Assembly (NCBI GenBank): GCA_003693705.1
Contig: RBZT01000839.1
Coordinates: forward strand, 1 to 26,450
Direction: 5' to 3'
Length of the DNA stretch: 26,450 bases
Source: Polymyxa betae
Lineage: Eukaryota > Endomyxa > Phytomyxea > Plasmodiophorida > Plasmodiophoridae
Shown: positions 11,304 to 26,450 of the stretch, piece by piece
Numbering within the stretch: position 1 is the stretch's first letter
Layout of the letters: every line of letters begins with the position of its first letter
The notes under the pieces: model-generated
Seen by the model: only the letters and a program-made list of their open reading frames with translations
Told to the model about the DNA's origin: nothing
The model's database searches: none
Position numbers and translations under genes: made by a program

Positions 11304-13221
11304 ATGAGCGATTGCGAAAGCGATGCGCAGGCGTCAGCCGAGGCCCCGCTTCCTAGTGTAGTTGGCTCGCCAGCTCATGGGTTCTGGACGCTGCTGAAGC
11401 ATCGTCATCTGGGAAGCGGTCATTTTGGAGATGTCTACGAAGGTGAAGCGGTGAACAAGCTAAAAGTGGCGGATAAAGCCAGATTGGTAGCCATTAAGGT
11501 ATCTAAGACCCGGATCTCTTCGAAAGAAATCCTGGCTTTGAAATCTATGAGTACTGATAATCAGTATCTTGATCTATACTTTCGCTAATCATATTTTAGG
11601 GGGGAATGGGGCTCCAGAGCTTTTCTACAACGGAGTCACTTCTAATGGCTGGCATATATTAGTAATGGAGCGATGTGGGAAGTCCCTCTATAGTGTTATC
11701 GAGCAAAGATCGAAAGGCAAAAATCAGCCTTGGACTCTTTCAGTTCCTGAGGCTCGTGAGATATCTATGCAAGCCCTTGCCCTGATTGAAAATCTCCATA
11801 ATACCGGCTATGTTCATGCTGATATTAAGCCTGCCAATTTTGTCTGTTCATCGAACTCTTCTGATCTTACAAAAGGCATCCGTCTAGTCGATTTCGGGCT
11901 TTCTAGGCCTTGGAAAACCACCTCTGGGAAACATGTTGACTATTGGCAACATCTCACGCATTTTGCTGGCTCGCTACGATATGCTTCGCTGCATGCTCAC
12001 CTCGGTCGGGGCCTCACCCGAAGAGACGATCTCGAGTCGCTCGGCTATATGATGCTTTATTTGATTAAGGGGTCTTTGCCGTGGCAAGGATTTAGAGGTG
12101 AAAGCAAGGGCAAGCTAATATGTTTGGCAAAGGGTGCTGTTTCGGTTGCGGAATTATGTCGTGGCGCTCCAGAAGGCCTAATGTTTTTCATGAGCAACGT
12201 TCGATGTATCGGTTACAACGAGAAGCCAGACTACGACTATCTCAGCAAATGTCTCAACTTTGACCGTGTCGACATTCGTCAAATTTCTTTGAATCCATCT
12301 GAAGATGCTGCTGATGTTGCTCCGGTGCCAGTTGGCAAGAATGATACCCTGTTATTGGGAAAGAATGGCAACAAACGTGGCGAGCGACCGGGCGCTGATG
12401 ACGAGCCAACTCCTGTCGTTAAGAAGCATCGGACCTTGCCTACCAACCGGAAAGTGCATCAATGGATTATCGTTTCAACTCAGCATGAGACTGCTGCACC
12501 TCCTCAACAAATGCTTACTATTAGCGAGGTCCAAAGTCTTGAAAAGACAATTGCCCTTGCTTCAAGACCTGGCCGAACAGGGCCGAGAAATGTTCGCTGG
12601 AGAATCGCCGCCATGTGCTTTGCTGAAAACGTCTACAAAGTTGTTCTCACCCAAGATGCCCAAGGCGCCCAGATCAAGGAGCAAAAGCTGTATCGTGTCT
12701 CAACCGATGCTGAATTTTTAGATACTGTGGAGAAGCTCTCGATGCAGGGCAAATCCATTACTCATGTATGTGGTCATCCCCATGGCTGGATTCTTGTCGG
12801 CTCTGCATTCAAACAAGAGAAGTACAGCAACCAAATGTTTGCTCTTTCGGAAACGTTCCCTGCCCAGTGGGTTGCTGACAACTGGGAGAACGGTTACTAC
12901 ATTACTGCCGTTGGTGCTAAGACCACGAAATGGTCTGTTGTCATGAGTCGTGGTGAAGGGGTCGAGTATGAAGCACAAACCGTCGAGCTTAGCTTTTGTT
13001 ATCCGAGCGAATCGATCAGAGCTCGCTGGCGCGAAGGCTATTCTATTACTTCTTCGGCATGTACCGTCGAACAATCGGCCTATGTCTTATCTCGGATAAC
13101 GGATTATGAAGAAATCGTGCAGAGGTGCACGAGGACGTCGCACGATCCCCTTCTGAAACTACAACAAGAAAATGACCAGCAATTTTCGATTGACGCTTTG
13201 ACCTTCGGCCGGGTCGAGTAA
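11304..13221 (+). CDS. Casein-kinase-1-like kinase with plant-type C-terminal repeats
   Basis: This is a Ser/Thr protein kinase of the CK1 group. Exons are 11304-11550 and 11600-13221 (intron 49 bases), giving 622 residues in phase. The glycine loop is GSGHFG (37-42) and the ATP-binding lysine is Lys65 in VAIK. The catalytic loop YVHADIKPANF holds Asp157, Lys159 and Asn162; the residue before Asp is Ala instead of the usual Arg or Gly. VDFG carries Asp180. RRDDLESLGY followed by GSLPWQG (about 223-245) is a CK1 hallmark. A basic linker, VKKHRTLP, follows. The C-terminal part (about 370-600) has repeated W-x-x-GY-x-IT motifs, NWENGYYITAV (about 509-519) and RWREGYSITSSA. It also has VVMSRG and FCYPSESI, the module found in plant CK1-like proteins (DUF7477 in Pfam, from memory). 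All catalytic residues are present, so the enzyme should be active. Its substrate is unknown. Confidence 0.93.
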
Positions 13222-22054: not shown

Positions 22055-22335
22055 GACCATGAAGAAAGATCATCCATTCTGAATGCAGAAGAAGGTTGCG
22101 TAATGAAACGAGGTTGCTCCAACTACAGTATCACACTACCGGTAAATAGAACATTGAAAATCACTACAAATAAGGATGTATTGTCATGCTGCCAACCTAG
22201 TCCATTCGAATAGCTCAGAGCAATTCGTTGCAGAAATTAGACTGAGTTTCAAGGCGTATTTCTGTTCTGACTGTCAGATGTCGTGACTCCCAGTCCGGCC
22301 CAGTACGAGGTGGCCATCGACGATGCTGAGTCACG
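22055..22335. other. Spacer between the SHIPPO gene and transposon debris
   Basis: No gene is recognised. The right part is still open on the minus strand as the tail of the hAT-like frame but has no family similarity after about 22340. Confidence 0.45.
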
Positions 22336-22572
22336 ACATCCCCGGCGTTCGTAGCGAGATTGTGTCTGGTAAATCGCGAAGTCAGATTCCACTGATGTTG
22401 TTCTGAAAAATGAAGTGGCGAGACCACCCAAAACCTCAACGAGGTCTGGGAATCGCTCCTTGAGCCCAGGCAAAGACCATGCTTCGTTAAAATCCGCATT
22501 GTCTGACAACTTCGAGATTGCAGACTTCAAACGAGGTTCGCATTCATTACTGGCAATGAGACGTTTGTATTG
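22336..22572 (-). mobile_element. hAT-like transposase C-terminal fragment
   Basis: About 78 residues read in the same frame as the RNase H just upstream on this strand. They run from a short helical lead-in through FNEAWSLPGLKERFPDLVEV to LGGLATSFFRTTSVESDFAI. This resembles the C-terminal dimerisation region of hAT-type transposases or transposase-derived proteins known to me mainly from oomycete genomes, where FPDLLEFCGGLA and TVESDFS occur in the same order. The rest of the transposase is absent. It is either a separate insertion into a Ty3/gypsy element or a fusion by deletion. Confidence 0.65.
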
Positions 22573-23518
22573 CTCAACAACTCGATCGTTGTACGATAGG
22601 ACTTCCTCAATCCAACTGGCTAGTAACGGAGAGACTTCTTTTTGAGTGAAAACAAAAGATAAAGCTTGATGATCACAGAATAACATGAAATGCCCCCAAT
22701 TTAATAATGAAAGCCTGAGAGCAAATATTGCAGCTAGCAATTCCTTTTCTGAAGCAGAATAGTTACGCTCCGATGATTGTAGAGCACGAGCAGCGAACAA
22801 ATTACCGGTTTTACGTGAAGTCTTCCTGGGTTCCGTTCTGCAGTTGATACAGGGCGTCACCTATACCAGCATCGGAGGTGAGTAGCAACATGAAACGCGC
22901 GATCAAAATCGGGAAAGTGGAGGAGCATCCCTGCTCGAAGTATTGCCTTGAAGGCTTTAAACGCTTGTCGGCGTTCAGCTGTCCAGACCGAGTCGTCATA
23001 CGGGGTACTTTTTGCAGCGACTCTAATGGGGCTACTAGATCTAGAGTAGAGTAGCAGGGCATGAAATCTCGGAAGTAGTTGATAAGCCCAAATACTTTTC
23101 GTTGCCGGTCTGTGGTAACGGCCAGGCTTCCACATCCACAAGTTTGCGGCGGTCGATCGTGGTGCCTTCAGCAGAGAAAGTATGTCCTAACAGATGAAGT
23201 GATCGCGTAAAGAGATGCGATTTTGAAATTCACAAGCAGATCAACAGCAGTAAGGCGATCGAGGGTGTCGATCAGATCTTCTACCCTGCTCTATCGGAGT
23301 ACTTGCGGACCGGACCGAGCTGTCGTCCAGAAAGGCGATAGCGCCGCGCGAACCCTCGAGAACACGACGCATGGTTCGCTGGAGAACTGGCGTGGTCGGG
23401 ATGAGCCCGAATATGAGATCCCAGCGAACATAAGATGGCGGCCAGACCAGGTAAATTCTAACTTTTGACGGTCCGGTTCGTTAATGGGAAGCTGCAGGAA
23501 CTATTGCTCTAAGTCCAT
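22573..23518 (-). mobile_element. Decayed Ty3/gypsy reverse transcriptase and RNase H
   Basis: Pieces of a Ty3/gypsy Pol polyprotein follow each other 5' to 3' on the minus strand with several frameshifts and stops. First is motif A as MDLEQ then FLQLPINEPD (about 23518-23480). Next comes the segment before the catalytic loop, FGLIPTTPVLQRTMRRVLEG, then AIAFLDDSS with the paired aspartates (about 23340). The thumb follows as LHLLGHTFSAEG and YLGLINYFRDFMPCYSTL. VWTAERRQAFKAFKAIL and LLHFPDFDRAFHVAT come next (about 23010-22880). RNase H then follows as DAGIGDALYQLQNG, SERNYSASEKELLAAIFAL and FMLFCDHQALSFV. No integrase, protease, gag or LTR is visible. Shifts near 22870 and 23200 show the element is dead. 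It is a plant/oomycete/fungal-type genomic element and not a virus. Confidence 0.9.
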
Positions 23519-24599: not shown

Positions 24600-25086
24600 A
24601 AGATCAGACATTGATCGTCGCACACGGTGAAAATTCCGTGCTAAAAGAGATCGACTCCGACCACCAATACAGCACCTGAACCAAACTTCGTCGATCACAT
24701 TGGCTGGAGTCCTGTTCTTTGCCCGGCCGACGAAGATATGGGAGGTCCTGTAACGGGCACTGCGAGGACCGTGACGCCACGGGGTTGCGCCGTCCCCGCC
24801 TTTCCCTCTGCGTCGGAGTCACGTACTGGGCCGACTCGGCGTTCCTGCCGGGCCTCGACCTGAGGATCATCCCAGCTTTTGAATTCATTCTCATAAAGAG
24901 TTCTTTAGTGTTGAACTGCAATTTATTAACGTCTGCACGCAAGCTTACCCGCTTACAGTCCCGCAAGTTACAGCGTGAATGGCAATTGCGATATGTCCAT
25001 GGCTGCATGTAATAGTACAGCCTCGATTCTTGTTATTATTATTATTTCTTTTCATCATTTTCTTTCATATTATCTTCCGGTCACAG
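24600..25086. other. GC-rich block and microsatellite, no clear gene
   Basis: Bases 24721-24840 contain 83 G or C out of 120, far above the flanks. Open frames exist on both strands across the block but none shows a known domain. To the right a TTATTATTATTATT tract (about 25031-25047) precedes a pyrimidine-rich stretch ending TCACAG, which looks like a splice acceptor for the next coding segment. Confidence 0.55.
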
Positions 25087-26367
25087 GTTGTACCAGCAGG
25101 TACACTTTGGATCAATTATCTTCCTAATTCGCCTCCTTTTCGCGTCTTCGCTTAATCGGCATTCGAACTGCCTTCCTCTTTACAAGTGATATTATTGAAA
25201 AAAATCCCAAAAATATCACGTTATAGGGTCTTATCTTCGGGATTATCAACGTCGCAAGCGGGAACAAGCCAAGCTGGATGCTCAGGAACTTGTTGATCTT
25301 CGTGTCCGTGTTTGCGAGCTTGAGATTGCACTTCGCACTGCCAATGACAAGGTTGCCGCATTGAAGGAGGAGGTTGCCAGTTCCGATGATGTTCTCGATT
25401 ACTGGAAGCGTATGTACAATTCTGTTGTTGAACAAGGCGCTGCTCCAGTTGATCCTGAACCTCCCAGGCGGTCTGGTCGTCACGTTATAAGACCCTATAA
25501 CGTGATATTTTTGGGATTTTTTTCAATAATATCACTTGTCTCTTTGATTTCACTTCCGTGTGAAGATCTTGGATTCCCTCTTCCACCCGGGATTCCTCAC
25601 ACTGCAAATGAAAGCGAAGAACTTCCCTTACAGGTTAAGTCCAGCTAAATGTCAATTGTAAACCTAATTCCTATATTGTAGGCTAATGTTAGTTCACTCG
25701 CACAAACTGTCGCGTTTGTCGGGAATCCCGGTCCTGAAGATTCTGATATCCAGCTGCCGGAAAGAACGTCACTTACACAGCCTCAGGAGTCTTCGGATTT
25801 TGTCGCTGTCGAGAAATTTGCCTCCGCTACTGCATCAACAGCTCCGCCATTGGCTGAAACCAATTGGAACGCACGCGAACTTTTCGTTTTAAAAATACTG
25901 CAAAAACGGCGATCAGAGCACAACCGGTGTCCCGTTTGGCACGGCATCTTTCTGTGGTTTTCGACAACAAATATCGGCGATACGATGCTTTAACAGTTCA
26001 GCAACTCTTGAAACCATCTGTCATGCCGCGAGCATGCATTGGCGAAAGCGAGGCAGAGAACGGTACAGCTTTTTTTGAATGGCTGCTAAATCTCAACAAT
26101 CCCTTAGATGCAGTAAAGATAATAGAAGATCCTGGATACATTTTTGAGCTTCAAGCGCAATTTGAAGCTCGGGTTTTTATCTCCTACGAGTCCAAGGTGT
26201 TGACCTCTTGGACTGCTCAACAAAACCCTGCCAACAGTACTTGGTGGCTCAAGCGCTTTCATGACTGTCTAAGACTATACAGCATTTATGTCATTGTGCG
26301 CCCCGTTCAAAGATCCGAGGTCTGTGCTGTGCTCACTTTGTGTGTATCAACTTATATTTTCTCCTAA
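25087..26367 (+). CDS. Unknown gene (possibly broken) interrupted by an inverted-repeat element
   Basis: Coding-like sequence begins after an acceptor at 25086 (VVPAGTLWINYLPNSPPFRVFA) and meets a TAA at 25153-25155. Further along the same frame lies SAFELPSSL, then the inserted element (25182-25539). After it the frame resumes (ISLPCEDLGFPLPPGIP). A clean intron follows at 25634-25681, GTTAAG to TGTAG. The next exon runs from 25682 (ANVSSLAQTVAFVGNPGPED) for at least 200 bases. Another frame, 25864-26367, is open to a TAA and reads QLLKPSVMPRACIGE and FFEWLLNLNNPLDAVKIIED; I could not find a clean splice linking the two frames. I recognise no domain. The stop at 25153 means either that an intron covers it or that the gene is decayed. 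Confidence 0.4.
25176..25545. mobile_element. Non-autonomous DNA transposon (MITE-like), 358 bp, with target duplication
   Basis: The arms 25182-25234 and 25487-25539 are perfect 53-base inverted repeats, starting ACAAGTGATATTATTG. They enclose 252 bases. CTCTTT stands directly outside both ends (25176-25181 and 25540-25545) as a 6-base target-site duplication. Removing the element and one CTCTTT rejoins the flanking reading frame exactly. The motif CACGTTATA occurs at 25217, at 25481 and inverted at 25496, forming a subterminal hairpin with 10-base arms and a six-base loop (25480-25505). The inner sequence does not code for a transposase. It holds an open frame of heptad-like, charged sequence (next entry). 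The superfamily is not clear; 6-base duplications are uncommon. Confidence 0.85.
25199..25633 (+). CDS. Coiled-coil reading frame carried inside the element and open into the flank
   Basis: A + strand frame opens just after a TGA in the left arm (25196-25198). It runs through the whole element and on into the flanking exon up to the splice donor at 25634. Inside the element it reads RDYQRRKREQAKLDAQEL, then VDLRVRVCELEIALRTANDK and VAALKEEVASSDDVLDYWKR, which has leucine and charge spacing typical of a coiled coil. PPRRSGRHVIRP follows, and the right arm codes for a hydrophobic stretch (VIFLGFFSIISLVSLISL). There is no ATG early in the frame, so expression would need an upstream exon or the internal ATG near 25412. 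This is likely a host gene fragment captured by the element. Confidence 0.45.
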
Positions 26368-26450
26368 TGAAGTAATAAATACTGCGACACTGCGCACTAT
26401 TTAAACCACATTGCGATACTACGCAAATGGTAACATAAGGGTTTCAAGTC
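26368..26450. other. AT-rich window end, no feature seen
   Basis: The stretch after the last TAA is AT-rich and contains AATAAA at about 26375, which could serve as a polyadenylation signal for the preceding + strand frame. Nothing else is visible. Confidence 0.35.

Follow-up and report, generated by a model that had tools for sequence, protein, structure and literature searches.

A short mobile element in Polymyxa betae, probably a miniature derivative of an endogenous Polinton-like virus or virophage

Our analysis suggests that a short mobile element in the genome of Polymyxa betae probably descends, in non-autonomous form, from an endogenous DNA virus of the Polinton-like or virophage sort. 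The element lies in a stretch of 26,450 nucleotides (contig RBZT01000839.1, hereafter the window), is 358 bases long, and consists of two arms that are perfect mirror images of each other with a coding-like scrap inside. The arms are best read as the ends of endogenous Polinton-like or virophage-type viruses, and we infer this type of virus from replication and fibre-type genes, GC content, the ends themselves and 6-base target duplications. The parts of the element and the repeat that hosts it are as follows.

25176..25181, no strand: left copy of the target-site duplication, CTCTTT, found once at the element-free site of contig C201
25182..25234, plus strand: left arm, which begins ACAAGTGATATTATTG and spans the hairpin loop (GGGTCT) and three further bases
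25235..25486, plus strand: core of 84 open codons, by eye a coiled-coil-like gene fragment, GC 0.52
25487..25539, minus strand: right arm, the exact reverse complement of the left arm
25540..25545, no strand: right copy of the target-site duplication, CTCTTT
25008..25601, no strand: repeat of about 230 bp hosting the element (the span counts the element in), absent on contig C359 and element-free on C201

The sequence-only reading had described perfect 53-base terminal repeats and a 6-base duplication at both ends, and both descriptions hold: the arms are 53 nt long, 100% complementary and separated by 252 nt, and they form the only inverted repeat of at least 30 nt reported in the window. That the element is a true insertion, placed within a repeat that in turn belongs to a duplicated region, follows from the paralogues: the site on C201 carries the flanking repeat with one CTCTTT and no element, and C359, which matches the surroundings of the window at 87-90%, lacks the hosting repeat as well as a 209-bp repeat. 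The repeat copy on C201 is 76-81% identical to that of the window, plus a 32-base piece at 94%, and compared with it the window has four extra bases immediately left of the duplication. The hosting repeat has TG...CA ends with CTGCA on either side and is perhaps a candidate solo LTR. Since this repeat is itself missing from the paralogous region of C359, the restored flanking frame that the sequence-only reading saw on removal of the element is uninformative. Nor does the identity of the arms indicate a recent insertion, as had been proposed; it is a poor clock, because palindromic arms can correct themselves and stay identical through gene conversion.

Elsewhere in the window we note a 209-bp repeat at 24749-24958 that is 99-100% identical on C504, C235, C387 and C495, a repeat of about 108 bp at the window end (26343-26450) that recurs in full at least nine times elsewhere (92-100% identical) and also in shorter or more distant copies, a retroelement relic with an RNase H domain (RT_RNaseH) on the minus strand at 22249-22860, and a protein kinase domain together with DUF7477 in one frame at 11551-13221.

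The search of the whole genome for further copies, which the sequence-only reading had suggested, did find the same ends elsewhere. We read the arm family on 29 contigs, 22 of them found with element and palindromic-arm queries, one (C89) with a terminal pattern and six by searches with proviral ends; counts from searches of the own genome are lower bounds. The family consists mostly of palindromic hairpins, many of them near-complete palindromes of the form CACGTTATA-loop-TATAACGTG or a variant of it, with termini of the types ACAAGTG, ACAAGG and A[C/G]TTGAATACC. On the 29 contigs the copies are few and vary in length and terminal type. In the window element, two such hairpins are represented by their outer halves and loops, with the core between them, and the last seven bases of the core (25480-25486) are also hairpin-family sequence, with family matches starting near query position 305.

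The ACAAG-type copies that can be read with intact ends and without a virus-like flank are those of the window, C89 and C489 (the right end of the C178 copy is lost), and their duplications are 6/6, 6/6 and 5/6, respectively. The C89 copy, of the ACAAGTG type, shares its ends with the window element and has CTACCA on both sides, a duplication of its own, while the flanks of the C489 copy read GCCATG and GCCAAG. The expectation of 6-base duplications in relatives is thus borne out by one perfect and one near-perfect case, but a two-ended copy of the ACTTG type on C18 shows no 6-base duplication by eye, which counts against a viral derivative. The duplication length had been said to fit no common group. 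In the part of PMC12220804 consulted, Polinton-like viruses are given target duplications of 5-6 bases, with 6 bp typical of their rve-type integrases, and it is this length that we find; on the other side, the consulted part of PMC8547959 gives mostly 3-5 bp for the endogenous virophages of Cafeteria (EMALEs) and 5-6 for mavirus and Mavericks. Among the copies no longer one with a transposase was seen, the core holds no transposase either (as the sequence-only reading had stated), and where the longer DNA joined to the ends can be named it is virus-like. A hAT-like frame lies, by eye, beside the C3 copy.

The link to viruses comes from the places where the hairpins stand. They are often found near contig ends, next to repeated AT-rich DNA, and at 18 of 28 loci (window excluded) the hairpin or its remaining half is immediately preceded by CCCC[A/G/T]G or ACC..AG. 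This count is a description rather than a blind test, because the pattern was fitted to data already seen, one alternative being added for C541; it also hits one unintended site, on the minus strand of L017 at position 144. The 28 loci do not include three further hits of the terminal pattern with two mismatches (L030, L031, L032), at which no hairpin partner was found, or L062, a weak and hairpin-less proviral-end match; L037-L039 and L040-L052 cover the same places, or adjacent ones, in longer extracts. The inner side of the junction is often AT-rich, encodes virus-like proteins in places (Prim-Pol, S74 chaperone, NUMOD4), and has DNA in common with another family contig at 15 of the 18 junction loci. 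For the remaining three no common inner side was shown, a point against the viral reading; C266 among them encodes an S74 domain, and C121 and C170 have weakly similar proteins (41%, 32 residues). Composition is similarly divided: of 29 loci listed, the window among them, 28 could be measured on either side; at 13 of these GC is at most 0.34 on one side and at least 0.38 on the other, but at 15 it is at least 0.38 on both flanks, which speaks against a viral origin.

The virus-like genes near hairpins include those of replication and fibre type. Prim-Pol on C131 lies about 0.4 kb from the hairpin, Peptidase_S74 on C266 adjoins its hairpin in a frame that matches phage tail-fibre families, and NUMOD4 adjoins the hairpin on C366. 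The DUF5906 helicase has two matches in the genome, both on hairpin contigs: C227, over the Pfam cut-off and about 9 kb from its hairpin, and C131, just under the cut-off. The C227 frame matches the solved primase 6k9e at 2.9e-13 as well as phage primase families, and the solved primases presumably come from a phage. A primase-helicase replication gene, as expected of an endogenous Polinton-like virus or virophage, is therefore present (Prim-Pol on C131, DUF5906 on C227). Against the viral derivative stand the C227 helicase frame and two hairpin patterns, for which no relatives were found in viral contigs (nor, for the former, in the protein collection). Likewise, no capsid, packaging ATPase or integrase was seen in the general Pfam scans made, parts of the proviral DNA being N on C405, C3, C1 and C131, and no provirus with both ends was found, hairpins being seen at one junction only at the 18 of 28 loci. 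At one proviral end (L059 2-904, on C1) there is a long repetitive frame of GC 0.25 that looks fibre-like by eye and has no match in Pfam or PHROGs.

These junctions also bear on a more conventional explanation, in which the element is an ordinary Pack-type transposon: a cellular TIR family with 6-base duplications would have taken up a host fragment by gap filling, and the hairpins beside virus-like DNA would be separate insertions that favour such ends. The sequence-only reading had proposed gene capture of this type, and the TIRs, the 6-base duplication and the coding-like core indeed conform to it. Moreover, the GC at the three codon positions of the core (0.75/0.39/0.40) resembles that of five host-like frames in the window more than that of four virus-like ones, and single-copy Pack-TIRs arising through gap filling are known in animals, according to the part of PMC8277862 consulted. 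However, a recurrent junction at 18 of 28 hairpin loci is not expected of random insertion, and no transposase of its own was seen near a copy, the by-eye hAT-like frame beside the C3 copy aside. C121 is of particular relevance here: its 42-base hairpin has a host-facing end that equals the terminus of the window element over 19 bases and another end at CCCCAG, and no 6-base duplication surrounds it, as expected if the hairpin is one end of something larger. Finally, DNA and protein searches of the own genome, in an assembly that may be incomplete, turned up no host donor gene for the core. We therefore regard an ordinary Pack-type transposon as unlikely.

What, then, is the core? With a GC of 0.52 against 0.26 for the arms, it is 252 bp long and open through 84 codons in one forward frame, whose first methionine is residue 60 with no earlier start codon. 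The coiled-coil reading frame that had been noted is coding-like, but its openness is weak evidence of coding, because 295 of 5000 shuffled cores also retain one or more open forward frames across 252 bp and, in the real core, two of the three reverse frames are open too. A DNA search of the own assembly with 25235-25486 matches only itself, nothing above noise appears in Pfam or PDB, and neither the viral contigs nor the protein collection hold relatives. The protein search of the own genome gives a single relative, on C510, with a stop and a frame shift. Over 51 codons the two differ 10, 9 and 32 times at codon positions 1, 2 and 3 (chi-square p 4.8e-5, counted ungapped over two aligned pieces with the tail beyond the stop included), and this third-position excess points to a core that was once selected coding sequence. 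A relaxed search also returned C72 (E 0.08), a weak match across an in-frame stop that we took as chance.

The C510 relative does not supply the host donor that had been sought, since it adjoins an arm of the same family. It begins at the end of this arm, which 13 of 25 family queries match with a best E of 1.5e-7 in 9 kb, the best elsewhere in the same 9 kb being 0.002. The two arms of the window fail to match it at E 0.05, so the arm subtypes differ, and no convincing right arm or matching duplication was found on C510. On C510 the arm and core are flanked on both sides by sequence that C82 also carries; C82 was rejected as a clean empty site, about 138 bp of it having no match on C510. Because the broken relative adjoins an arm of the same family, the cargo appears to be common to two insertions rather than freshly captured. 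It could stem from one cargo-bearing lineage or from two captures of one vanished or unsampled gene, and without a start codon it is most likely a passenger.

If there was a single lineage, the core might instead have belonged to the element or virus from the start, as a gene maintained by selection, with the window element and C510 as internally deleted members. The codon-position differences agree with this possibility, as do the position and orientation of the core and its C510 relative, both directly after an arm and the same way round, and the C82-shared sequence around the C510 arm and core. Nevertheless we consider it improbable: the GC of the core is unlike that of the AT-rich virus-like frames, relatives are missing from the viral contigs and the protein collection, the fragment has no start codon, and the window arms do not match an arm that 13 of the 25 other family queries do recognise.

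How could an element like this arise from a virus? In the viral derivation that we favour, the arms are the outer halves of a palindromic hairpin that elsewhere in the genome stands between host-like and virus-like DNA. Acting in trans, a viral integrase of the rve type would have inserted the element after recognising its ends (ACAAG...CTTGT). Break repair at the hairpin tip is the probable way in for the cargo, as the core takes the place of both inner hairpin halves from just beyond the loop. Solo hairpins may also arise when the palindromic ends of a provirus recombine, leaving one hairpin and one duplication, in the manner of solo LTRs. A further and rather doubtful extension is that provirus ends act as a platform for moving genes, the viral integrase mobilising hairpin-built miniatures that carry the same coding fragment to more than one place. 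The hairpins themselves may go back to linear viral DNA with closed hairpin ends. At two loci only, within the same proviral-end family, the loops are opposite (L023 490 on C3 and L033 321 on C196, AGACCC versus GGGTCT), reminiscent of flip-flop telomeres. Closed hairpin termini are listed for PBCV-1 in the part of PMC6260650 consulted, and the word hairpin is absent from the main text of PMC12220804 and PMC4642659.

If this derivation is true, the legacy of endogenous viruses includes, besides broken proviruses, miniature elements with viral ends that are able to carry gene fragments, and gene-carrying transposition, best known in plants and animals, would be tied to viral integrases. The solo-hairpin signature would then make old provirus insertions findable in fragmented assemblies. 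More generally, our analysis raises the possibility that fragments of genes are moved by the integration machinery of viruses.

The portion of the open-access literature surveyed showed no account of such elements, and a number of known systems come close; the likenesses below refer to the consulted parts of the papers cited. A Helitron is ruled out by the target duplication and the inverted ends. Polinton-like viruses, virophages and Mavericks/Polintons in protists are alike in having TIRs, 5-6-base duplications (3-5 in Cafeteria virophages), a primase-helicase (noted together with TIRs in protist endogenous viral elements, PMC10120064), non-host GC and a fragmented representation in short-read assemblies (PMC12220804, PMC8547959, PMC10120064; see also PMC6431247). 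The published terminal repeats of Polinton-like viruses run to hundreds or thousands of bases (PMC12220804), whereas the window element has 358 bp in all, no recognised viral gene, and arms that are halves of a palindromic hairpin. With Pack-MULEs and Pack-TIRs it shares TIRs and a target duplication around a coding-like, non-TE interior; Pack-TIRs have a parental copy (PMC8277862), while here no parental copy unlinked to the element is found, the sole relative of the cargo lies beside an arm, and the mover is probably viral. MITEs, which are known inside giant virus genomes (PMC6004678), are likewise short, non-autonomous and strongly palindromic, with TIRs, a duplication on insertion and no transposase. 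Unlike MITEs, with their high copy number and uniform length, the miniatures described here are few, vary in size and appear to take their ends from proviruses. In shortness, non-autonomy and strong palindromy they also resemble foldback elements.
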